A DNA stretch of 64,000 nt from Fodinibius roseus (GTDB lineage: Bacteria > Bacteroidota > Rhodothermia > Balneolales > Balneolaceae). The notes under the pieces were generated by a model. The model saw only the letters and a list, made by a program, of their open reading frames with translations, had not been told where the DNA came from and searched no databases. The stretch covers positions 186,001-250,000 of the forward strand of contig NZ_FQUS01000002.1 of NCBI RefSeq assembly GCF_900129315.1, written 5' to 3'. Each line of letters opens with the position of its first letter. The first letter of the stretch is position 1. This document shows, one piece after another, positions 25,866 to 36,442 of the stretch. The translations under genes were made by a program, and so were the position numbers.

Positions 25866-27047
25866 ATGGAAAAAAAAGCTTCTGTATTTAGAAAACTCGT
25901 CTTATCGCTCACCTTTTGCCTGTCCCCGTTGCTGATTCTTGCCGCTCCCCCCGATCAGGGTATTCTGCTGTATACGGCCTATACGAGTCAGTCTGTAACG
26001 CCGGGCAAAACGGTGACCTACAATATTGAAGTCATCAATCAAACAGAAGGGATACAAAATGTAAATCTTTCGCTACGGGGTGTCCCCAACAGTTGGGCAC
26101 CCTCCCTGACGGCCGGAACCAACAGCATCCAAAAGATCGCGGTAAAACCAAAGGGGGTTGAATCGGAGAATGCCAAAGAGGTTGACCTCAAGCTGAATGT
26201 TCCACTAAAAATCAGTAAAGGATATTACACCTTCGAATTATTTGCCGAAACAGACAGCGGTATGGAATACCTGCTGCCCCTGAGCATTCAGGTTACCGAG
26301 CAGGGGGTGTTCCGGACCGAAATGCAGATCGATCAGGCCAATATGGAGGGATACGCAGATTCCGATTTTAATTATAATTTCACGCTGAATAATCAGACTG
26401 CCCGGGAGCAGAACTATGCCCTCTCTTCCGCAGCACCGCCGGGCTGGGATGTCCGCTTTCGGGTGGGAGGCAACTACGCCACCTCTGTTAGCATCGGCAC
26501 CAACGAGAGCGAGAATATATCGGTGCAGGTAACCCCACCTGAGCAGACAGAGGCCGATACGAGTGAGGTTGTCATCCGGGCCACTTCCGGCAGCACTTCG
26601 GCCCGGGATACGCTGGAAGCGGTTATAAAAGGGAAATATGATCTGAATTTGACAACTCCCTCCAGCCGGCTGAGCACGGAGGTGACGGCCGGGGGTGAGC
26701 AAACGATCGAACTGTTGCTGGAAAACAGCGGCACGGTCCCGCTGCGGGATATCTCGCTGGATGCATCGACTCCTGCTGAGTGGAAGGTCAATTTTGAGAA
26801 CGACGAGGTAACCCGGCTGGACCCGGGAGAGACCACCACGGTGGATGCGACCATAGCCGCCAGCAGCAAAGCCATAGCCGGTGATTACCGGCTGCAGATG
26901 GACGCCAGCACCCCGGAGGCTTCGTCGGAGGCCACCTTCCGGGTAACCGTCAGCAAATCCATTGCCTGGGGATCAGCGGGAATTTTTATCATCCTGCTGG
27001 TATCCGGCGGAATTGCTTACCTGTTTAAAAAGTACGGGAGGAGATAG
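25866..27047 (+). CDS. NEW3-domain exported protein with C-terminal membrane anchor (ABC-associated)
   Basis: A 393-residue protein with a signal peptide (ending near LLILAAPP), three tandem immunoglobulin-like NEW3 domains (starting about residues 30, 145 and 265; repeated patterns such as VTPGKTVTYNIEVIN and VTAGGEQTIELLLEN), and a single C-terminal helix (WGSAGIFIILLVSGGIAYLF) with a basic tail. It therefore sits in the inner membrane with its domains in the periplasm. NEW3 proteins encoded just ahead of an ATP-binding cassette protein and a NosY-like permease recur in many bacteria. Here the ABC gene begins two bases after its stop. It may gate or capture the exported substrate, which is unknown. 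Confidence 0.85.
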   Translation: MEKKASVFRKLVLSLTFCLSPLLILAAPPDQGILLYTAYTSQSVTPGKTVTYNIEVINQTEGIQNVNLSLRGVPNSWAPSLTAGTNSIQKIAVKPKGVESENAKEVDLKLNVPLKISKGYYTFELFAETDSGMEYLLPLSIQVTEQGVFRTEMQIDQANMEGYADSDFNYNFTLNNQTAREQNYALSSAAPPGWDVRFRVGGNYATSVSIGTNESENISVQVTPPEQTEADTSEVVIRATSGSTSARDTLEAVIKGKYDLNLTTPSSRLSTEVTAGGEQTIELLLENSGTVPLRDISLDASTPAEWKVNFENDEVTRLDPGETTTVDATIAASSKAIAGDYRLQMDASTPEASSEATFRVTVSKSIAWGSAGIFIILLVSGGIAYLFKKYGRR

Positions 27048-27049
27048 CC

Positions 27050-27997
27050 ATGAGCGATCCCATCATCAGGATTGAAAATCTGGTAAAGGATTACCGGGAT
27101 ACCAGGGCCGTGGATCACCTGGACCTGGAGATTGAAAAGGGAGAGATCTATGGGCTGCTTGGTCCCAACGGAGCTGGAAAAACGACCGTTATCCTGACGC
27201 TGCTGGGACTTACGGAACCGACAGCGGGCAGAGTTACGGTCAAAGGTTACAATGCGACCTCGGAACCGATCAGGGTAAAAACCGTCACCAGCTACCTGCC
27301 CGACGAGGTGGGATTTTCCGGAAGTAGTACGGGACTGGAAAGCCTGGTTTATACGGCGATGTTAAACCGGGTTCCACGGGAGGAAGCAATCGAATCCGCA
27401 AAAGAATTGCTGGATATTGTGGGCCTGGGAGCGGTCGGAGACCAGAAAACAAAGACGTATTCCAAGGGAATGATCCAGCGGCTGGGACTGGCTGATGTGC
27501 TTATTACGGAGCCGGAAATCATCGTGCTTGACGAGCCCACCATCGGCATCGATCCCAAGGGCATTAATGAGTTTTTGGACATGATCAGGAGCTGGAGCAA
27601 AGAACAGGGGATTACCGTGCTCTTGTGCTCCCACCTGTTGCACCAGGTCCAGAAGATATGTGACCGGGTAGGCATACTGGTAGAGGGACAGCTGCTGGCG
27701 GAGGGGGATATCCACGAGCTGGCCGATGAGCTGTTTGGCGACCGGGAGGCCTCCATTACGGCGGAAGTTGATCCCGTGACCGATAGCTTGATCAGAGAAT
27801 TGAAGCAAACGGAATCGATACGAACCGTTGAAAGGGATGGAGAGACCATCAGGATAAGGGGAAAGCGGGAGGCGGCCCCCCTGATTTCGCAAACGATTGT
27901 GCGCAACGGCGGGGATTTATACCGGCTTTCGTATAAAGAATATGGACTGGATGAAATCTATCAATATTATTTCGAAGGAGGTGGAGTAAAACAATGA
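27050..27997 (+). CDS. ABC transporter ATP-binding protein
   Basis: A 315-residue nucleotide-binding subunit. Walker A is GLLGPNGAGKTT (near residue 36-47), the signature TYSKGMIQRLGLADVL, and Walker B IIVLDEPTIGIDPKG, with the switch His in LLCSHLLHQVQ. The C-terminal ~90 residues form the extra domain common in drug/lipid/NosF-type exporters. It powers the permease encoded by the next gene, whose ATG overlaps this stop as ATGA. All catalytic motifs are intact. Confidence 0.95.
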   Translation: MSDPIIRIENLVKDYRDTRAVDHLDLEIEKGEIYGLLGPNGAGKTTVILTLLGLTEPTAGRVTVKGYNATSEPIRVKTVTSYLPDEVGFSGSSTGLESLVYTAMLNRVPREEAIESAKELLDIVGLGAVGDQKTKTYSKGMIQRLGLADVLITEPEIIVLDEPTIGIDPKGINEFLDMIRSWSKEQGITVLLCSHLLHQVQKICDRVGILVEGQLLAEGDIHELADELFGDREASITAEVDPVTDSLIRELKQTESIRTVERDGETIRIRGKREAAPLISQTIVRNGGDLYRLSYKEYGLDEIYQYYFEGGGVKQ

Positions 27998-28935
27998 CCG
28001 TGGATAGCGATACCGTGAGACCGTTCTGGGTGATGGTTCAAAAGGAAATTTCGGATCACGTCAGGAGCTGGCGGTTTGTAATCCTCGTCGCCCTGATTGT
28101 GTTGACGACCAGCGGATCCATATACACGATCTTATCGGTTATTCAGGATAACCCGGCCCAGCTCAGTGCGGACACTACGTTTCTCTATTTAAAGATATTT
28201 ACGGAATCGATCAATAACCTGCCCCCGTTTATAACGCTTATCGGCTTCCTGGGACCGCTGGTCGGGATCGCCCTGGGATTTGATGCCGTGAACGCGGAGC
28301 GGGACAAAGGGACCTTGAGCCGGGTTATCTCCCAACCTATTCCCAGGGATTATTTTATCAACAGCAAGTTCGTGGGGGCTCTGATCGTAATCTTCGCCCT
28401 CATTTTTGCCCTGGGTTTTCTGGTGCTGGGTCTGGGTATCCTGTATGTCGGTCTCCCGCCTGCCGCCGAAGAACTGCTGCGCATTATCGCATTCCTGGTT
28501 TTTACCTGCGTATACGTAGCTTTCTGGCTAAATCTTGGCATCACCTTTTCCATTGTGTTTCGCCAGTCATCAACCTCCGCACTCTGTACGCTGGCCATCT
28601 GGCTTTTTTTCAGCGTTTTTTATTCGATGCTGGTCAATTTTCTGGTCGGTGCCACCACCTATAGCAATTATGCGGCCCGGACTCTTACGGTGATGCTGTC
28701 CAGGATATCGCCGGAATTTTTGTTTAACGAACTGACGACCATCCTGCTTACCCCCTCCATCAGGAGCCTCGGGGGATTGAGTTTCGAACAGGTATCCGGT
28801 ACGATTCCTTCGACTTTGCCGCTGGGACAAAGTATGCTCCTGGTCTGGCCGAATATCACTGCTTTGGTGGCGGGTACATTAATCTGTTTCGGTATCTCCT
28901 ATATGTTGTTCATGAATCAGGAGATCAGGGCGTGA
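27994..28935 (+). CDS. ABC-2 type (NosY-like) permease
   Basis: A 313-residue inner-membrane protein with six hydrophobic helices. The first is at VILVALIVLTTSGSIYTIL, followed by a large loop, then TLIGFLGPLVGIALGFDAVN and the cytoplasmic ERDKGTLSRVISQPIPR coupling segment typical of ABC-2 exporters. It pairs with the ATP-binding protein just upstream (four-base overlap) and with the NEW3 protein. A strong GAAGGAGGTGG ribosome site lies 10-20 bases before the ATG, inside the end of the upstream gene. The exported substrate is not evident. The transcript probably ends in the 224 bases that follow. Confidence 0.92.
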   Translation: MTVDSDTVRPFWVMVQKEISDHVRSWRFVILVALIVLTTSGSIYTILSVIQDNPAQLSADTTFLYLKIFTESINNLPPFITLIGFLGPLVGIALGFDAVNAERDKGTLSRVISQPIPRDYFINSKFVGALIVIFALIFALGFLVLGLGILYVGLPPAAEELLRIIAFLVFTCVYVAFWLNLGITFSIVFRQSSTSALCTLAIWLFFSVFYSMLVNFLVGATTYSNYAARTLTVMLSRISPEFLFNELTTILLTPSIRSLGGLSFEQVSGTIPSTLPLGQSMLLVWPNITALVAGTLICFGISYMLFMNQEIRA

Positions 28936-29159
28936 AGGGCGTAGCGTTGGGGAGTGGCGGCTTGTCGTAAACACATAGGGTTGTACTCTTATCATCCAGT
29001 AGTAAGTTTTAATCCCCAGAAACCTGATTATAGCTTTTGCCTGTCTATCAGAGGCAGAAATTTTCGGCATTGCTTAATGAAAGGGCATAAACGATAAGTA
29101 CATAAAATTAGTTCTATTACCTGATCGCGGGATATTTAAATCAAATCAAATTATTGCTT

Positions 29160-30374
29160 ATGTCAAATTGTGTTGCCCTGCTTGGATGGAGTCTCCCTGC
29201 CATTGAAAGCGTAGAAAAACTGGACAAACCTTATGTCGTTGTCAGTTTTTCCGATTTTGAAAATTATGCCAACGAACATGACATTCCTTTTGTAAGCTGG
29301 GATTTTAATCACTGGGATGAAACACAAAACTCTCTGCAGCTTGCTGAAAAACTAAAAGCCTTTGATGTGGGCTATGCAGTGCCTCTTTTTGAGGAAACGG
29401 TAGAGTGGGCCGGAGCATTAAATTCGATTCTACGGGATGATCCCAGGCTAATGAACCGGTCTTACCTGTTCCGAAATAAAGCGATGATGAAGCGGAAGGC
29501 GCTTTTGGCCGGTTTGCGTGTCGGTTTATTTGATGAAGTTTACAATACCTCGCAAATCCATCAATTTATGGACCGTCTCAATGAAGCAAATCTTCAGCTG
29601 GAGGGGGAAGAGGATGCATGGATACATCTGAAGCCTTTTGCAGCAGCCGGGACCGTGGGTCATAAGCTGCTGCGCTCCCGTAGTGATATACAGGATAAAG
29701 TTGTTGATAAGGATTTTCCCTGTCTGGTGGAGAGTCATCTGCCCGGGAAGGAATTTTCCTGCGAAGCTTTTGTCCATGAAGGCGAGATTAAATTTCTGAA
29801 TATTACTGAATATGTTCGCCTCGGATACTCCAATTTTGTACCGGCGGGACCAGAATTGCAGGAAAAACGCCCGGCAATCAAAAAGGCGATGCAAAAGTTG
29901 GTAGATTCGTTTGGTATAGAATACGGAATGATTCATCCGGAATGGTTTCTCACGGAAAATGATGAGTTGAGCTTTGGGGAGGTAGCCTGTCGCATACCGG
30001 GGGGGCATATTCTGGAACTGGTAAGCAAATCGTATGGATTTGATGCCATTCAGGCTCTTATTCTAAGCAGCGATCCCGGTACAACTTCGGAGGAACTGGA
30101 CGAATTTTTCCCCAACGATACAACAACTGATGTCTATCACGGCAGTCTGATGGTGTATCCAAAACGAGGCCATATTACCAAGCTGGAAGTTCCGAAGGAG
30201 CTGGAAGAAGACTCGTACTTTGAAGAGCATACGCTTTATCCGCCAAGTCCGCATAAAGTGAGCGACCGCGAAGGATTCGGGAACCATTATGGCACTATCT
30301 TTTTTAAGGGTGAAGAACCTAAACGAATGCAGGAATTATTGCGTCATTACCGGGAGGTTGATTTTTACGTATAA
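29160..30374 (+). CDS. ATP-grasp carboxylate-amine ligase-like protein
   Basis: A 404-residue protein from the ATG at 29160; the upstream TTG at 29154 is less likely. An N-terminal Rossmann-like part (CVALLGWSLPAIESVEKLDK; PYVVVSFSDFEN) precedes an ATP-grasp domain. The phosphate-binding segment is WIHLKPFAAAGTVGHKLL (residues ~157-174), the adenine/ribose segment CLVESHLPGKEFSCEAF, and the metal-binding segment ELSFGEVACRIPGGHI. These place it among biotin-carboxylase-like ATP-grasp ligases, which activate a carboxylate as acyl phosphate and join it to an amine or thiol. The acceptor and substrate cannot be told. It leads a tight three-gene operon with an unknown 662-residue protein and an alanine racemase, which suggests a D-amino-acid-containing amide product. 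Confidence 0.83.
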   Translation: MSNCVALLGWSLPAIESVEKLDKPYVVVSFSDFENYANEHDIPFVSWDFNHWDETQNSLQLAEKLKAFDVGYAVPLFEETVEWAGALNSILRDDPRLMNRSYLFRNKAMMKRKALLAGLRVGLFDEVYNTSQIHQFMDRLNEANLQLEGEEDAWIHLKPFAAAGTVGHKLLRSRSDIQDKVVDKDFPCLVESHLPGKEFSCEAFVHEGEIKFLNITEYVRLGYSNFVPAGPELQEKRPAIKKAMQKLVDSFGIEYGMIHPEWFLTENDELSFGEVACRIPGGHILELVSKSYGFDAIQALILSSDPGTTSEELDEFFPNDTTTDVYHGSLMVYPKRGHITKLEVPKELEEDSYFEEHTLYPPSPHKVSDREGFGNHYGTIFFKGEEPKRMQELLRHYREVDFYV

Positions 30375-30411
30375 ACAATAGCAATATGAATTTAAGTTTG
30401 ATCCCTATTTA

Positions 30412-32400
30412 ATGGCGATATCTGTTGACGCTCCTAAAAAGATTATTGTTCAATTTGATAAGGCACTTGAAAATCTGAGAGAAGCGAAATCATTTGGTAT
30501 AGAACAGTATAAACCCCGGCTTATGAGTGCCGTTCATCGCTTGTTGGAGAGCCCGAAAGGTCTTCAGTTTCTTCATAGTCGTATTGAAGAGCTTCATGAT
30601 GTTCATATTTTTCAGGGATCCGCCTGGGAGGACCCCCATTCGCTGGTACCCACCCTGGTAGGGGGCACATTAAAGGCAGGAGGCGAAGCAGCAGACTTTG
30701 AGATATTGAGTGAGTTGCGTCTTCTTGCCATTGCCAATGGCCGTATCGAAGATGAAGATATCACTGCTGCTGAAGCAGGAGGCTTTCTGCAGAAAGTGTT
30801 GGCCAATAATTTGGAATTTCTTTTCCCGGAGAGTACGGAAGAAGCCCGCAAGACATCGGAAGAACAGTGGAGAAAGATCAGGCAGTTGTTTGAACTGCTG
30901 GTAGAGGAAATTCCACTGGAAGGAATAAAGGAAAATCTTCTGGAAGAAGTAGAAATGATCTGTGCCCAGCGCCCGATTGTAACCGATCGCGCACAGCGTA
31001 TTCTTCAGTTTGTCAAAGAAGAGCTAAACCTCAATTCAGAATTGACCACAGATCACAGTCTTCGTGAATACGTGGACTGCCTGTACAGCCCTACCTTTTA
31101 TTTGCATGATAACCCGGAGTTATCACCGGAAGCCTACGGTGAATATCTCGATCAGGCCGATGATGAACAGCTTAAGTCAGAATGCCTTCAAATGGGGCAG
31201 TCAATGAGTTCAACCGGTCTAACCAGTCCTTGGAGTAGTGTTTTACTTAACAAGATTGTAGAGCAACCGATACGAATCCACCAGGCTCTTGCTTTGAATC
31301 AATCCGGAAAGGCAGAGCTAATGAAACATAAAGCATTTGTTAAGGAGCTGATCACCCGTGTTATAAACCCGGCTACCCATCGTTGTATTTATGGGCTGGG
31401 TCGACTTTTGGAAAGGAACCTGTTGTCACACCAACCGGTGGAAACCGGATTAAAGCGACTTCTGGATTTGAAGATGGATCCTTCCGTCAGCGAAAAGATC
31501 CTTCAGTCAACCCTTGCCCTTAAGTCGGATAATCCGGCACCGGAAGCACTACTTACGGCCGATACCCTAAGTGTGCTGGGCCAGCCGCTTGGCGTCGGAC
31601 AGGGATGGAATCCTACCTGTCAGTCAGCCCGGGGGATTAGTTTATGGAGCAGTCATGCTCCAGGGAAGCTGCTAAATATGATTATTTCCGCTGCCACTGA
31701 GAATAATCTCTCCATGCGTTTCGAAGGAACCGAATTGAATTCTTCTGAATTGCTGGAGGGGCTGGCCAAGGAGCTGGATTACCATTTGGATATGGTTTCC
31801 ATTGTACTGGTACCCCACCTGGACCGCCTGTATAATGAAATGATGAGACGCTGTGCACTTCGTCCCGAGGATGGTCACAAGTGGGTGAATCCTGCAATGT
31901 ACGGGCACTGGATCCCGAATGGATTTCTGTCGGCCTATAATGTAACGACTGATGCTATTACCAACTACGAGGAGTTTATTCGAACGTTTTATGCTACCCA
32001 TCACCCATCCTATAACGGTGGCCACGACCTTGCCTATCCAAATCCGGTAGGAATCTTTATCACCTCATCAAGCGGTAAGCTTTTGGGGTTTCATGCAGTT
32101 TCTATTCTCCGCGTCGCCGAACATGCGGGAGAGGTGCGTGTTTATTTTCTAAATCCCAATAACGAAGGTCGGCAGACATGGGGACCAGGACTGGAACCTA
32201 CCGTGGTCGGGAAAGGTGAGCGGTATGGGGAATCCTCTCTTCCCTTTTATCAATTTGCCTCGCGGATATATGCGTTCCATTATCTTAAGGCTGATCTGGT
32301 TGATCCACAGATTGTTCCGGATAACGAAGTAAACCGAATTATTGACATGGCACGCAGCAGTTGGGGCCATTCCTATACGTGGTCTGGTCAACTGGGTTAA
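30412..32400 (+). CDS. Unknown 662-residue protein with a papain-like Gln/Cys/His/Asn pattern
   Basis: I do not recognise a family. There is no signal peptide or membrane helix, so it is probably cytoplasmic. Residues 1-385 are mostly helical, with acidic, repeat-like segments (RLLESPKGLQFLHSRIEEL; GYxLGRLLERNLLSH). Residues 386-662 look like a separate catalytic domain. Gln397 and Cys403 (GVGQGWNPTCQSARGIS) have the six-residue spacing of papain's oxyanion Gln and catalytic Cys. His561 (KLLGFHAVSIL) begins the strand expected for the catalytic His, and Asn581 (VYFLNPNNEG) follows at a suitable distance. A cysteine peptidase, transglutaminase or acyltransferase is therefore possible but unproven. 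The gene lies 37 bases after the ATP-grasp gene and 15 before the alanine racemase gene. The gene is full length with no frameshift. Confidence 0.7.
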   Translation: MAISVDAPKKIIVQFDKALENLREAKSFGIEQYKPRLMSAVHRLLESPKGLQFLHSRIEELHDVHIFQGSAWEDPHSLVPTLVGGTLKAGGEAADFEILSELRLLAIANGRIEDEDITAAEAGGFLQKVLANNLEFLFPESTEEARKTSEEQWRKIRQLFELLVEEIPLEGIKENLLEEVEMICAQRPIVTDRAQRILQFVKEELNLNSELTTDHSLREYVDCLYSPTFYLHDNPELSPEAYGEYLDQADDEQLKSECLQMGQSMSSTGLTSPWSSVLLNKIVEQPIRIHQALALNQSGKAELMKHKAFVKELITRVINPATHRCIYGLGRLLERNLLSHQPVETGLKRLLDLKMDPSVSEKILQSTLALKSDNPAPEALLTADTLSVLGQPLGVGQGWNPTCQSARGISLWSSHAPGKLLNMIISAATENNLSMRFEGTELNSSELLEGLAKELDYHLDMVSIVLVPHLDRLYNEMMRRCALRPEDGHKWVNPAMYGHWIPNGFLSAYNVTTDAITNYEEFIRTFYATHHPSYNGGHDLAYPNPVGIFITSSSGKLLGFHAVSILRVAEHAGEVRVYFLNPNNEGRQTWGPGLEPTVVGKGERYGESSLPFYQFASRIYAFHYLKADLVDPQIVPDNEVNRIIDMARSSWGHSYTWSGQLG

Positions 32401-32415
32401 ATAAATTTATCTGTT

Positions 32416-33573
32416 ATGCAACGTCATTCATCCCGAATTGAATTAAGTCAGTCAGCGCTGCAAAACAACCTTGATTTTATCCGTAGAAAAACCGGCGAGG
32501 ATGCGATTATATCTTCCGTGGTAAAGGCCAATGCCTATGGACACGGTATACCAGAGTTTGTCCCTATGGCCGAAAAGTGTGGCATTCGCCATTTTGCGGT
32601 AGCATCAAGCTATGAAGCGGAGGAAGTGTTGGAAGCCCGCACGACCGATGCAGATGTTATGATCATGGGGATATTGTATCCTGAGGATCTGTCTTGGGTT
32701 ATTGAGCAGCAGGTTGAGTTTTTCGTCTATGATTACAACCGGTTAAAACGTGTGATAGAAGTAGCTGAAAAAATAGATAAGAAAGCTCGTATTCATCTGG
32801 AGTTGGAGACCGGGGGCAATCGTACCGGTTTGGAAACGGGGCAGTTGGATGCGGTGATCAAACAGATTAAAAAGCATGCAGACCAACTTATACTGGAAGG
32901 AGTTTGCACCCATTACGCGGGAATAGAATCACTTTCCAATCAGCCTCGTATCCAGCAGCAGCGAAAGCAGTTTGGGGAAATGGTCGATTGTATCAAATCA
33001 TCGGGTATTAACCCAAAAATGCAGCATACGGCCTGTTCAGCGGCAGCTCTTGCTTTTCCGGAAACCGTTATGGATTTAGTTAGAATAGGTACGGCGCAGT
33101 ACGGACTGTGGCCCAGTCCTGACATCTACAACCTGCACCTGCTGGAGGAAAACAAGGTGTCTGATAACCCTCTTCAACAGGTATTAAGCTGGAAGACCGA
33201 TATTATGCATCTCAAGGAAGTAGCGAAGGGCGAGTTTATCGGGTATGGGACAGCCTACTGTGCATCTCGTGATATGCAGATAGCGGTGATCCCGGTGGGA
33301 TATGGAAATGGTTATACCCGCAGCCTCTCGAACCGGGGACATGTACTCATCCGCGGAAAGCAAGCTCCTATTGTGGGAGCTGTCAATATGAATGTTTTTA
33401 TGGTAGATGTGACGGATATCGAAAACGTGCAGATCCGGGATGAAGTCGTAATGGTTGGACACCAGGAAAAAAATGCCATTACTATTAAATCCTTCACTGA
33501 AGTTGCCGATGCTATAAATAATGAATTTATAAGCCGCTTGCCTGCAGCCATAAACCGGCAGGTAGTACCATAA
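32416..33573 (+). CDS. alr: Alanine racemase
   Basis: A 385-residue PLP enzyme of standard length. The N-terminal TIM barrel begins with the PLP-lysine motif VVKANAYGHG (Lys37). The C-terminal beta domain contains the catalytic-tyrosine region GYGTAYCAS (residues ~276-284), VIPVGYGNGYTRSLSNRG and GAVNMNVFMVDVTD. The last carries NMN in place of the more common SMD/CMD. It interconverts L- and D-alanine (possibly other small amino acids) for peptidoglycan and for other D-Ala uses. Here the gene is the last of a three-gene operon behind an ATP-grasp ligase and an unknown protein, not beside cell-wall genes. A dedicated role in that pathway, or a broad-specificity racemase, is therefore possible. 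Confidence 0.93.
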   Translation: MQRHSSRIELSQSALQNNLDFIRRKTGEDAIISSVVKANAYGHGIPEFVPMAEKCGIRHFAVASSYEAEEVLEARTTDADVMIMGILYPEDLSWVIEQQVEFFVYDYNRLKRVIEVAEKIDKKARIHLELETGGNRTGLETGQLDAVIKQIKKHADQLILEGVCTHYAGIESLSNQPRIQQQRKQFGEMVDCIKSSGINPKMQHTACSAAALAFPETVMDLVRIGTAQYGLWPSPDIYNLHLLEENKVSDNPLQQVLSWKTDIMHLKEVAKGEFIGYGTAYCASRDMQIAVIPVGYGNGYTRSLSNRGHVLIRGKQAPIVGAVNMNVFMVDVTDIENVQIRDEVVMVGHQEKNAITIKSFTEVADAINNEFISRLPAAINRQVVP

Positions 33574-33747
33574 TACGGGGAGTTCATGAAACTCCTTCAC
33601 ATGCAGACGAATCTCAACAATGAAAGCTCAGGCAGGTACAGCTTTAGATGATGAACCGGATATGGCTTCCCGGTAAGGAATATGGTGGCAATTGCAATGG
33701 GTATGTCCTGGTAGTTGAGCAAGAGATGGAAGGATGAATTAACTAAA

Positions 33748-33808: not shown

Positions 33809-36442
33809 TTAGCCCGCCCAGGCTTCGGCGTCATTGAAGACCTCGGCAAACTCGATGGTTTCTCCTTCTTTGCCGAGGGTCGCTTCAAATTCAACCCGCT
33901 TGTCCTCCTCGCGTTTAATCAGTTCGGTAGCAAGCTTATCGATAATCTGGGTCTGTATCAGCCGCTTGAGCGGTCGCGCCCCGTAGACGGGATCGTAGCC
34001 GCGTTCGGCCAGCCAGTCCTTGACGTTGTCTGAGATTGACAGCTTGATATCTTTCTTGTCGAGCATCTTGTGTACCCGTCGAAGCTGGATATCCACAATG
34101 TCCCGGATATGCTCTTTCTCCAGCGGGTGGAATACGATGACATCATCCACGCGGTTGAGGAACTCCGGACGAATTTGCTTCCTGAGCTGCTCCATCAGCT
34201 GATCCTGCAGCTTGTTATACACGTCATCCGTGAACTCCCCGCCGGTCTCTTCGATTTTATCGGAGATAAGGTGCGAACCGATGTTGCTGGTCATGATGAT
34301 AATGGTATTGGTGAAATCCACCGTTACCCCTTTGTTGTCCGTAAGGCGTCCTTCGTCCAGCACCTGCAGGAGCATGTTGAATACATCGGCATGCGCCTTT
34401 TCGATCTCATCCAGCAGAATGACCGAGTACGGCTTGCGTCGCACAGCTTCGGTAAGCTGTCCCCCTTCGTCATATCCTACATAGCCCGGAGGAGCCCCCA
34501 CCAGTCGGCTTACGCTGTGTCGCTCCATGTACTCACTCATGTCAATACGGACCATTGCGTCTTCGTCGTTAAAGAGGAAGTCGGCCAGCGAACGGGCAAG
34601 CTCGGTTTTACCGACCCCTGTTGATCCCAGGAAGAAGAACGACCCGATGGGACGCTGGGCATCCTGCAGGCCGGCGCGCGAACGCCGCACGGCATTGGAA
34701 ACGGTTTCAACGGCGGGATCCTGTCCCACTACCCGTTTATGCAGCTCTTCTTCCAAATGAACCAGTTTCTCCCGCTCGCTCTGCAGCATCTTGCGCACCG
34801 GGATGCCGGTCCACCGCGATACAATATCGGCGATATCTTCGTACTCGACCTCCTCTTTGAGCATGGCGCGGCCTTCCTGCACTTCCTCCAGCTGTTCTTT
34901 GGTTTCTTCGAGATCTTTTTCCAGCTGGTTGATGGTGCCGTATCGCAGCTCGGCCACCTTTTCATACTTTCCTTCGCGCTCGGCCTTTTCGGCCTCGTTG
35001 CGGGAGGTTTCTATCGCCTGCTTGAGGTCGCGTGTTTTCTTGATCAGGTCCCGTTCGGTATCCCACTGGTTGCGCATGGTCGACCGCTTTTCTTCCAGGT
35101 CGGCCAGTTCTTTTTCAATATTTTCAATTTTTTCCTCGTTTTGTTCCCGTTTCAGGCCCTCGCGCTCGATTTCCAGCTGACGTATTTGCCGCTCTACCTG
35201 GTCCAGTTCTTCCGGCATGGAGTCAATCTCCAGCCGCAGGCGGGAAGCGGCCTCGTCAATCAGGTCGATCGCCTTGTCGGGCAGAAACCGTTCGCTGATG
35301 TACCGGTGCGACAGTTCCGCAGCAGCCACCAGGGCTTCATCCCGGATTTTCACCCCGTGATGGAGCTCATAGCGTTCCTGAAGCCCGCGTAAAATTGAAA
35401 CCGTATCTTCCACGCTGGGTTCATTGATCAGCACTTTCTGCATACGGCGCTCAAGGGCGCGGTCCTTTTCGATATACTTGCGGTACTCATCGAGGGTTGT
35501 GGCCCCGATAGCGTGGAGTTCTCCGCGGGCCAGCGAGGGCTTGAGGATGTTGGCGGCATCCATGGAGCCTTCCGAAGCACCGGCTCCAACAAGCGTATGG
35601 ATTTCATCGATAAATAGAATAATTTCTCCCTCTGAATCCTGCACTTCATTGACCACCGCTTTCAGGCGTTCCTCAAACTCGCCCCGGAACTTTGTTCCCG
35701 CCATCAGGGCCCCCATATCAAGAGCTACAATGCGCTTGGATTTTAGGCTTTCAGGCACATCCCCGCGGTTGATACGCAAGGCCATTCCTTCTGCAATGGC
35801 CGTTTTTCCTACTCCGGCCTCTCCGATTAATACCGGGTTATTCTTGGTACGCCGGGAGAGAATCTGCATGACGCGCCGGATCTCCTGGTCGCGCCCGATA
35901 ACCGGATCCAGCTTATTCTTTTCGGCCTCTTCATTGAGATCGCGGGCATATTTTTTAAGGGCGTTATAGCGACTTTCCGCATTGGGATCGTCGACTTTTT
36001 GCGAGCCGCGGACATCCTGCATGACCTGCAGGACATTGTCCCTGGTTACGCCGTGCTGCTTCAGAAGCCGTCCCGCTTCGCTTTGGGTTTTGAGCATTCC
36101 GATCAGAATATGCTCCGAGCTGATATACTCGTCTCCCATTTCATTGGCCGACGACTGGGCCTGGTCAAACAATTCCTTGGAATCATTTGCAAGATACTGT
36201 CCGGAGACGGAAGCGCCCTTGACAACCGGAAGCTTGTCGATACGTTTCTCCAGCTCCGATTTCAGCTGTGGCGCTCGCACCCCCACTTTATTGAGGATGG
36301 TATGGACCACATTATCGGTGTCGGTAAGCAGTGCCATAAGAATATGGGTCGGGGCTACCGCCTGGTGGTTGTTGCCGGAGGCTACATCAACCGCTGCCTG
36401 GACGGCTTTCTGGGCTTTGAGCGTGAATTTGTCTAAATTCAT
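33809..36442 (-). CDS. clpB: ATP-dependent disaggregase ClpB
   Basis: An 877-residue Hsp100 chaperone. Order: Clp N domain (residues 1-~145, with two repeat motifs such as [13 protein letters not shown] and [13 protein letters not shown]); AAA+ module 1 with Walker A GEAGVGKT (near 200) and Walker B LFIDEIH; a long coiled-coil middle domain (about 400-525) that marks ClpB rather than ClpA or ClpC; AAA+ module 2 with Walker A GSTGVGKT (near 605), the GYVGYDEGG pore loop and LLDEIEKAH; and the C-terminal D2-small domain. It threads aggregated proteins with the DnaK/DnaJ system. A J-domain gene, a DegQ-type protease and an Hsp20 gene lie within 9 kb on the same strand. The terminator is clear. 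Confidence 0.97.

Follow-up and report, generated by a model that had tools for sequence, protein, structure and literature searches.

What would a cell make with an ATP-grasp ligase, a 662-residue protein without a family name and an enzyme of the alanine racemase family, encoded one behind another? These genes occur in Fodinibius roseus within the window, i.e., the whole stretch of 64,000 nucleotides analysed here. No paper on this trio was found in the open-licence literature, although an earlier prediction elsewhere is possible. The unit is laid out as follows:

29077..33576, + strand, self-contained unit, 88% identical in a congener and the sole match of the window to the 19.9 kb around that copy
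29160..30374, + strand, ATP-grasp ligase, 404 aa, predicted L-amino-acid-ligase type (PF13535, model fold)
30412..32400, + strand, 662-aa protein, whole ORF
32416..33573, + strand, alanine-racemase-family PLP enzyme, 385 aa (PF01168, PF00842, TIGR00492, K37, Y277)

The first-pass annotation had taken the three genes for a single cassette, and this reading holds: the frames lie where it had placed them, with 37 bases between the ligase and the 662-residue protein (30375-30411) and 15 bases between the latter and the racemase (32401-32415), and the same order recurs in other genomes, as described below. The same-strand gene upstream ends at 28935 and looks by eye like an ABC permease, a neighbour with many paralogues in the genus; downstream, the gene at 33809-36442 is ClpB-like by eye and lies on the opposite strand. 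In a blastn comparison of the whole window with a 19.9-kb stretch of the congener (locus L204 of genome G006), a single match was obtained, 29077-33576, the same unit of ~4.5 kb standing there in unrelated surroundings. The dN/dS values between the window and a congener are 0.042 for the ligase, 0.094 for the 662-residue protein and 0.089 for the racemase.

Conservation and distribution of the three genes

The trio arrangement is far beyond chance. In a locus scan using six peptides of the 662-residue protein as queries, from which distant copies of this protein, or lone copies of the other two genes, would escape, the racemase follows the 662-residue protein in 73 of 73 loci, and the ligase precedes it in 65, the other eight contigs beginning within or beside the gene for the 662-residue protein. 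Taking the nearest ATG as start, the frames of the 662-residue protein and the racemase overlap by exactly 7 bases in 57 of the 73 loci; the window is not of this overlapping type. Among 196 genomes of one family, searched free of the six-peptide limit but with only some of the first-look candidates scored, ligase orthologues (at least 713 bits, the next ligase match reaching 57 bits) and the 662-residue protein occur in the identical set of 44, and in all 44 the ligase comes first. Thus, the supposition that homologues of the 662-residue protein might be found mostly alone does not agree with either survey. Two phylum-wide searches each gave 4 positives in 395, and they count as one result, since they cover the same phylum and three of the four positives fall at the same places.

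The trees of the three proteins agree with one another (Mantel r 0.85, 0.88 and 0.90; 0 of 1000 permutations as high), and the ligase of the window shares 63-72% identity with the other trio ligases that it was compared with. Beyond the trio, no gene family (at least 80 aa) is present in over 16 of the 73 loci. The carriers number in the dozens and are for the most part aquatic bacteria.

Apart from these, the ligase and the 662-residue protein were found side by side in one lineage only, Halomonas, whose ligase scores 26 bits against PF13535, just under the cut-off of 27, and whose record has no racemase beside the pair. For this reason, the pair is probably the core of the system, and the racemase would be part of its form in Bacteroidota/Balneolia. 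Among the 196 genomes, racemases similar to the trio type also lie away from the pair in four cases.

Other kinds of element were considered and rejected. Each of the three proteins matches 0 PADLOC defence families at E 1; no phage record was found, and 0 viral contigs were confirmed from 42 pattern matches; the plasmid collection gave one record only, a 1.8-Mb Halomonas replicon; and 7 of the 73 loci gave 0 Rfam matches at the gathering score. A shared upstream motif was set aside as well, no enriched word appearing in more than 14 of the 61 stretches upstream of the trio.

The ligase and its partner with a predicted papain fold

The ligase matches PF13535 with 31.5 bits (Pfam cut-off 27), and 34 of 34 aligned members match this family at E 0.1 or better. 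Its model (pLDDT 88) is closest to 3vot, the enzyme BL00235 (Z 32.1, 3.9 A, 373 residues aligned), followed by RizA (Z 31.8) and BacD (Z 28.2-29.4), a fold that is alone no proof of dipeptide synthesis because other ATP-grasp enzymes appear from Z 27.7 down. By profile, its nearest solved relative is RizA (E 6.7e-8), and BL00235 comes third and weakly (E 0.017), after a purine-type enzyme. The trio ligase therefore shares with RizA, BL00235 and BacD the full-length fold and PF13535, but it is only 16-20% identical to them in the fold comparison and, unlike them, is paired with the 662-residue protein. The ATP-dependent amide-type ligase named in the first-pass annotation is borne out and can be narrowed, PF13535 and the modelled fold indicating an enzyme of predicted L-amino-acid-ligase type.

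The 662-residue protein matches no Pfam or NCBIfam model above cut-off, and no signal peptide was seen in it by eye. A 'Latarcin' match in Pfam, below cut-off and present in 3 of 43 members, was taken as chance. The modelled protein consists of two parts, the second with a predicted active site:

30412..31581, + strand, helical N-terminal part, residues 1-390 (25 helices, 0 strands by DSSP; AlphaFold2 model)
31582..32400, + strand, papain/calpain-like catalytic part, residues 391-662 (fold model)
31600..31602, + strand, codon of Gln397, predicted oxyanion-hole Gln, six residues ahead of the Cys (Q in 59 of 59)
31618..31620, + strand, codon of Cys403, predicted nucleophile, first residue of helix 403-415 (C in 59 of 59)
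32092..32094, + strand, codon of His561, predicted general base, in strand 557-571 (H in 59 of 59)
32152..32154, + strand, codon of Asn581, predicted third triad member, right after strand 574-580 (N in 59 of 59)

The helical part, whose invariant residues include E97, R103, R146, E179 and Q186-R187-P188, gave weak matches only in the fold comparison (proteasome, NprR, PI3K gamma, Nop9 and others; Z 5-6). For the second part, the model range 361-624 matches cores of calpains modestly (Z up to 7.9, at 4.3 A over 200 aligned residues), and the first 18 matches of this comparison (VIA) are calpain chains, although values of Z below 8 may mean a common arrangement only. Foldseek places cathepsin B at E 0.18 with a probability of 0.87, and nothing at E 0.001. 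Calpain family C2 (PF00648) does not match the window's protein at E 1, and no C2 family stands among the 25 of 33 Pfam families listed for 43 members. In calpain, a Gln precedes the Cys, with His and Asn following, and this Gln has the role predicted here, as described in a passage of PMC4631099. The resemblance to C2 peptidases comprises the tentatively predicted fold of residues 361-624, the order Gln/Cys/His/Asn and the placement of these residues at a helix start and strand ends, whereas the ~390-residue helical front part and the lack of a family-model match set the 662-residue protein apart. The four residues are also kept in two divergent trios and in Halomonas. The thiol-catalytic domain that the first-pass annotation had thought possible is supported by the modelled calpain-like part and the invariant Gln-Cys-His-Asn, and the protein appears to represent a family of papain-fold enzymes that neither Pfam nor NCBIfam has named.

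The racemase and a possible link to ornithine

The third protein carries both domains of alanine racemases (PF01168, 163.6 bits; PF00842, 136.7 bits) and scores 281.9 bits against the NCBIfam alanine racemase model TIGR00492 (cut-off 168), and the PLP lysine K37 and catalytic Y277 are invariant in 59 of 59 trio racemases. It departs from alanine racemases at one position, and in being an extra copy beside other racemases:

33520..33522, + strand, codon of Asn369, in the position of the alanine-specificity Tyr (Tyr354 of Geobacillus Alr); N 55, Q 2, A 2 of 59

Tyr occupies this site in none of the 59 trio racemases, in all eight sister racemases examined and in four of four racemases of MurF-Alr fusion size. 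In a quick tree, the eight sisters form one group (support 85), and the 59 trio racemases need two changes, since the orphan L101 is placed among them. The best match among solved proteins is an alanine racemase, with VanT second; among the NCBIfam models, that of the VanT-G catalytic domain ranks second, its 254.7 bits falling short of the cut-off of 460. Lyr, Bar and VanT are not known from this gene neighbourhood. According to the part of PMC3485190 dealing with this site, the Tyr enforces alanine specificity and is replaced by Thr in lysine racemase (Lyr), by Ala in the broad-specificity enzyme (Bar) and by Asn in VanT, and in this lack of the Tyr the trio racemases resemble the three. The same part of the source reports that restoring the Tyr in lysine racemase (T391Y) changed its Lys/Arg preference little, so that the residue alone is no proof of the substrate. 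Gln is found at this position in 4y2w, a structure whose deposited name is alanine racemase 1. Since the Tyr is replaced by Asn, Gln or Ala in every trio racemase and kept in every sister examined, D-alanine, which the first-pass annotation had named as product beside a related D-amino acid, is doubtful. That annotation had also allowed for a housekeeping racemase, the only one of the cell, and this is ruled out by the six PF01168 places in the window's genome; the 24 other trio genomes searched have at least five such places each, many with a MurF-Alr-sized frame.

A candidate for the substrate is suggested by the surroundings of the trio in other genomes, where the flanking families present in 10-16 of the 73 loci lead to arginine genes. 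Of the 79 stretches searched, 18 have ornithine/arginine genes next to the trio, arranged in five layouts, and the other 61 contain none of the sought arg genes, many of their flanks being short. ArgJ was found in 35 of 44 trio genomes and in 13 of 152 without the trio (Fisher p 1e-19, a value that overstates independence because the genomes are related). Among nearer relatives the figures are 10 of 10 with the trio, one of these carriers (G040) resting on a 39-bit fragment, and 17 of 48 without it. The association is incomplete both ways, 9 of the 44 trio genomes having no ArgJ match and 13 genomes having ArgJ but no trio. Genome G893, a carrier of the trio, has a relative of the trio racemase together with an Orr-like protein (323 bits, below the model cut-off of 480) directly before argB-argD-argC-argJ. 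The window itself contains none of the congener's arg genes, and the ArgJ of its genome lies on another contig; this link was thus invisible to the first-pass annotation.

A proposed pathway and its alternatives

Taking into account gene content, co-inheritance, the kept active-site residues, the lost specificity Tyr and the ornithine/arginine linkage, all of them observed directly, we infer substrates, step order and product as follows. The operon may encode a cytoplasmic amide- or dipeptide-forming pathway linked to ornithine supply and involving a D-amino acid, a tentative reading to which we give a probability of roughly 0.37. The substrate of the racemase would be an amino acid exceeding alanine in size, ornithine or a relative being the likeliest, and would be turned into the D enantiomer; a carboxylate would be activated as acyl phosphate by the ATP-grasp ligase and joined to an amine; and the papain-fold protein would take the amide on its Cys as a thioester, to be passed to a second amine or hydrolysed. 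A narrower version, possible but doubtful, would be a dedicated and hitherto undescribed pathway to a D-ornithine-containing dipeptide or amide in saline-habitat bacteria, fed by argB-argD-argC-argJ, whose papain-fold proteins are new transpeptidases with a helical substrate-binding part of their own. Overall, the first-pass annotation is partly right; the modified cell-envelope component that it suggested as a product found no support of its own.

Two known systems, glutathionylspermidine synthetase/amidase (Gss) and BtrJ/BtrH of butirosin synthesis, combine an ATP-grasp ligase with an enzyme of papain fold, by which the acyl product is cleaved or transferred, and the trio, likened to them here by description only, has the same two components; neither system is known to include a racemase, and both use other substrates. 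By analogy with Gss, the papain-fold protein could be a hydrolase undoing the amide made by the ligase, so that a product is stored and released on demand, the racemase setting the stereochemistry of one part. The papain-type tetrad and the strict pairing with the ligase, even without a racemase, agree with this proposal, but in Gss the amidase, a CHAP domain, and the ligase are fused into one protein, whereas here a separate protein with a ~390-residue helical part is found, and we regard it as rather unlikely. For BtrH, a papain-like fold is stated in a passage of PMC2922099. The ligase might also tag a protein or a ribosomally made peptide with an amino acid, the papain-fold protein then removing this tag or trimming the target, a large helical part with many invariant residues being suited to protein binding and the shared unit including no transporter gene. 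This proposal is unlikely, taking into account that the closest structures of the ligase are dipeptide ligases, that the neighbours recurring across groups belong to amino-acid synthesis, that no further gene family accompanies the trio widely, and that no recurring small ORF was seen by eye in 40 gaps, each longer than 40 bases, separating the ligase gene from that of the 662-residue protein; in these gaps, a precursor peptide of a graspetide or other RiPP is therefore unlikely too.

The distribution of the carriers raises the question of a compatible solute, a dipeptide or acylated amino acid counteracting salt; such a product would account for the occurrence of carriers in the sea, in soda lakes and among Halomonas. 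Ornithine-derived solutes are known, many source records look marine or saline by title (the sample codes being taken by us as such sources), and Halomonas is the one further lineage in which the pair was found. In 20-kb samples, the acidic/basic ratio is 1.197 with the trio versus 1.123 (p 0.008), and the proportion of proteins with pI under 6 is 0.592 versus 0.462 (p 0.027), but D+E shows no difference (p 0.57) and K+R no clear one (p 0.07), in small samples whose statistics ignore kinship and from which 18 of 80 stretches had been left out because of insufficient length or number of ORFs. We consider this explanation about as improbable as the tagging of a protein. Finally, the combination of ligase, peptidase and serine racemase in vanC-type clusters recalls the trio, the three activities being alike in kind, with Asn at the VanT site of the racemase and the VanT-G domain as its second-best model. 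A Van-like remodelling of cell-wall precursors is nevertheless highly improbable: the ligase reaches 10.8 bits against a D-Ala-D-Ala ligase cut-off of 310, the peptidase is papain-like and not a VanXY-type metallo-enzyme, and the hosts are Gram-negative.

The ornithine link reduces the candidate substrates to a short list, making the function directly testable. The trio racemase would be annotated as alanine racemase, a name that may be mistaken in the genomes concerned. A three-gene unit so strictly kept in dozens of species points to an overlooked metabolite.

A conserved three-gene unit

Reading of the open reading frames confirmed three genes on one strand of the window, separated by 37 and 15 bases, where the first-pass annotation had placed an operon.

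29160-30374, + strand: ATP-grasp ligase
30412-32400, + strand: 662-aa protein
32416-33573, + strand: racemase

On the same strand, a gene that looks by eye like an ABC permease stops 224 bases ahead of this trio, and a ClpB-like gene (by eye) lies downstream, facing it. The region directly upstream (window 25866-28935) holds a 393-aa protein with an exported and membrane-anchored look, as judged by eye, and then an ABC ATPase and permease; elsewhere in the genus, the top-scoring matches of this ATPase reach only about 30-38% identity. The trio is carried by 2 of 12 genomes of the genus, and the two copies are 88% identical across window 29077-33576, a common unit starting 83 bases 5' of the ligase and ending 3 bases past the racemase stop, with no other similarity, at the thresholds used, between the 19.9-kb stretch round the second copy and the 64-kb window. 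The trio is a self-contained unit. Between both copies, dN/dS is 0.042 for the ligase, 0.094 for the 662-aa protein and 0.089 for the racemase.

The annotation had proposed counting the neighbours of the 662-aa protein in other genomes. Six of its peptides, scanned against one genome per species (84,980 species), gave 73 loci, whose hosts are, by record title, Balneolota/Balneolia, Cytophagales-type, Saprospirales, Flavobacteriales/Cryomorphaceae and a few others, one being titled Rickettsiales. A racemase gene lies downstream on the same strand in 73/73, and the ligase upstream in 65/73; in the remaining eight, the contig starts inside the 662-aa gene (or where this would lie) or shortly upstream of it. 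With the nearest ATG as start, the racemase frame begins inside the 662-aa frame in 57 of the 73 loci, the overlap being exactly 7 bases. Among 196 genomes from the family of a trio carrier (G426), the 662-aa protein is present in 44, and ligase orthologues (at least 713 bits; best other match, 57 bits) occur in the same 44, adjoining the 662-aa gene in all of them when coordinates are compared by eye. A trio-type racemase (at least 648 bits) likewise adjoins it in 44/44, a count which takes in two genomes with the 662-aa gene cut by a contig break. One genome of this sample, G925, has a trio-type racemase (670 bits) without the other two proteins, and three trio genomes have a second racemase at 625-630 bits, all other racemases scoring 518 bits or less. 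The 662-aa protein was found in 10/58 genomes of nearer relatives, the window's genome counted, and in 4/395 phylum-wide (two overlapping draws).

Protein trees from 59 complete trios, the window's among them, agree with each other (Mantel r 0.847, 0.881 and 0.901; 0/1000 permutations as high), with 42, 32 and 36 of 56 splits common to pairs of trees. The finding of a trio holds, and is stronger than the earlier reading of the window alone could know. Within the open-licence literature searched, no publication was found to describe the trio.

In a Halomonas replicon of 1.8 Mb (NZ_CP040452.1), the ligase gene (47%) is separated by 30 bases from that of the 662-aa protein (39%), and a non-racemase gene comes next; the sole PF01168 match of the record is about 0.5 Mb from the pair, and the end of the 662-aa-type gene matches in two frames. 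From this pair without an adjoining racemase it may be inferred, on one record only, that the ligase and the papain-fold protein are probably the older unit, the racemase being a specialisation.

Predicted ligase and papain-fold enzyme

The first gene does encode an ATP-grasp protein (Pfam PF13535, 31.5 bits against a cut-off of 27), with no NCBIfam model above cut-off. Its model (pLDDT 88) matches L-amino-acid ligases along its whole length: 3vot (Z 32.1, 3.9 A, 373 aligned), RizA (Z 31.8), which is also the nearest solved relative by profile (E 6.7e-8), and BacD (Z 28.2-29.4), while purine-type and other ATP-grasp enzymes score Z 27.7 and lower. E261, E274 and R278 are among the residues invariant in 59/59 ligases.

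Neither Pfam nor NCBIfam gives a match above cut-off for the 662-aa protein. Its model (pLDDT 86.4, pTM 0.83) is all helix through residue 430 and mixed beyond. Calpain chains fill the top 18 places of the structural comparison, the best (Z 7.9, 4.3 A, 200 aligned, over residues 361-624 of the model) lying below the Z of 8 under which, as the tool warns, a match may reflect a common arrangement only; unrelated helical pieces follow from Z 6.1 downward. Foldseek alone gave no match at E 0.001, its best papain-type match being cathepsin B (E 0.18, probability 0.87). The active site is stronger evidence for a papain fold than these scores. Gln397, Cys403, His561 and Asn581 are the same in 59/59 proteins, and two divergent trios and the Halomonas protein have them as well; in the model, Cys403 opens a helix, His561 sits within a strand and Asn581 comes after the following strand. 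Bacterial calpains (PMC4631099) have a Cys, His, Asn triad with a glutamine ahead of the cysteine, the same order. The thiol-catalytic domain suspected in the middle protein is supported by this predicted site, and the protein is taken as a predicted papain-fold enzyme whose family has no name in Pfam or NCBIfam. It is probably cytoplasmic, since no signal peptide is visible by eye in its sequence.

Racemase specificity and arginine-pathway genes

The third protein has both alanine racemase domains in Pfam. Its PLP lysine and catalytic tyrosine do not vary among trio racemases, nor do the arginines corresponding to Arg136 and Arg219. Strict alanine specificity has been attributed to a narrow gap between two inner tyrosines, one of them Tyr354 (Geobacillus numbering), a site where lysine racemase has Thr, a broad-specificity racemase Ala and the serine racemase VanT Asn (PMC3485190). 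The 59 trio racemases have Asn, as VanT does, in 55, Gln in two and Ala in two. Tyr is found at this site in 8/8 sister racemases (relatives outside the trio, forming one tree group), in four racemases of MurF-Alr fusion size (805-831 aa) and in two of four others of 365-377 aa, the other two having His. It could be argued that the trio enzyme is still alanine-specific, taking into account that NCBIfam labels it Alr, that Gln occupies this site in 4y2w, a solved structure bearing the name alanine racemase 1, and that restoring Tyr in lysine racemase little changed its Lys/Arg preference (PMC3485190). However, the specificity tyrosine is missing in 59/59, and the trio racemase is probably not alanine-specific, judging from its sequence.

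Near-trio-type racemases with no ligase or 662-aa gene nearby occur in four other loci (L101 5645-6802, L102 6287-7474, L103 6192-7424, L104 5959-7149), with Asn at this site in three and Thr in one; those of L102, L103 and L104 lie near IMP dehydrogenase-like and dihydrodipicolinate synthase-like genes (by eye).

Two conserved gene families flanking the trio are arginine-pathway genes. The search for argB, argC, argD, argG, argJ and a gene of 235 aa (N-acetyltransferase-like by eye alone, with no Pfam or NCBIfam match) covered 79 stretches, made up of the 73 loci, L204-L206, the two divergent trios and the Halomonas record. L206 and L025 appear to be one contig. Within the flank sequence at hand, arg-type genes occur in 18/79, in five layouts.

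Layouts of arg-type genes beside the trio
Layout 1: argB-argD-argC-argJ, or its argD-argC-argJ part; downstream, same strand; L031, L032, L033, L049
Layout 2: argC-argJ; upstream, same strand, its end about 35 bases 5' of the ligase; L069
Layout 3: argB-argD-argC-argJ; upstream, same strand, 200 bases off; L204 (congener)
Layout 4: argB-argD-argC-argJ; divergent, 230-260 bases off; L066, L084
Layout 5: argD, argC, argG and the 235-aa gene; divergent; 10 Cyclobacterium loci

A rough calculation puts the expected share of loci with an arg neighbour at well under 1%, so chance is an unlikely source of five layouts, although the pathway had not been singled out in advance. With kinship uncorrected throughout, ArgJ is present in 35/44 trio genomes versus 13/152 without the trio (Fisher p 1e-19), in 10/10 versus 17/48 among nearer relatives (p 1.6e-4; G040 with a 39-bit fragment only), and in 4/4 versus 5/31 in the window's own family (p 0.0024). 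argC adjoins argJ in 14/14 ArgJ regions examined, the full argB-argD-argC-argJ being recognised in nine and argG in none (argF and argH were left out of the search); argB, argD and argJ score above NCBIfam cut-offs in the examples tested. The D-alanine-making racemase of the earlier reading should therefore be replaced, given the absent tyrosine and the arg-gene linkage, by a non-alanine, probably ornithine-linked one.

Eight further stretches (L220, L221, L223-L225, L227-L229), from genomes with and without the trio, hold an argB-argD-argC-argJ cluster with no argG recognised nearby. A 280-aa gene stands between trio and arg genes in L031, L033 and L049. Genes for 260-280 aa directly follow the racemase in L031 (9134-9976) and L073 (9114-9899); they belong to two families, each in 4/73 loci, with no Pfam match at E 0.0001. 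A second racemase operon is found in the window's own genome outside the window (L100 4230-10445; contig C28 300229-306444), in L105 (5178-10591) and in L233 (1092-6332), with a sodium-solute symporter, GNAT, M20 amidohydrolase, Alr2 and a PF01168 protein of about 360 aa, named by Pfam for L100 only, by NCBIfam for L233 only and by eye for L105. Alr2 is 47% (L100) and 45% (L105) identical to the trio racemase and keeps the tyrosine. In L233, the PF01168 protein reaches 323 bits with the model of ornithine racemase Orr (cut-off 480), and its gene directly precedes argB-argD-argC-argJ.

Habitat and proposed pathway

Many trio records appear to be marine, soda-lake or salt-lake, judging from titles and sample codes. 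In a crude acidity test, stretches no longer than 20 kb came from 40 trio and 40 non-trio genomes picked by handle, of which 34 and 28 were kept once short ones had been dropped. Comparing trio with non-trio genomes, the acidic/basic residue ratio was 1.197 versus 1.123 (p 0.008) and the share of proteins with pI below 6 was 0.592 versus 0.462 (p 0.027), with no difference in D+E alone (p 0.57) and no clear one in K+R (p 0.07). A saline role of the trio is weakly suggested.

Glutathionylspermidine synthetase/amidase and butirosin BtrJ/BtrH, in which an ATP-grasp ligase works with a papain-fold acyl enzyme, are parallels to the pairing in the trio. BtrH has a papain-like fold (PMC2922099).

The analysis shows the gene content and co-inheritance of the trio, its predicted folds with the active-site residues kept, the loss of the specificity tyrosine and the linkage to arg genes. 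In the pathway proposed, argBDCJ would supply L-ornithine, from which the racemase may make D-ornithine, if not another non-alanine D-amino acid; the ligase would form an amide via an acyl phosphate, and the papain-fold enzyme would transfer or hydrolyse it.
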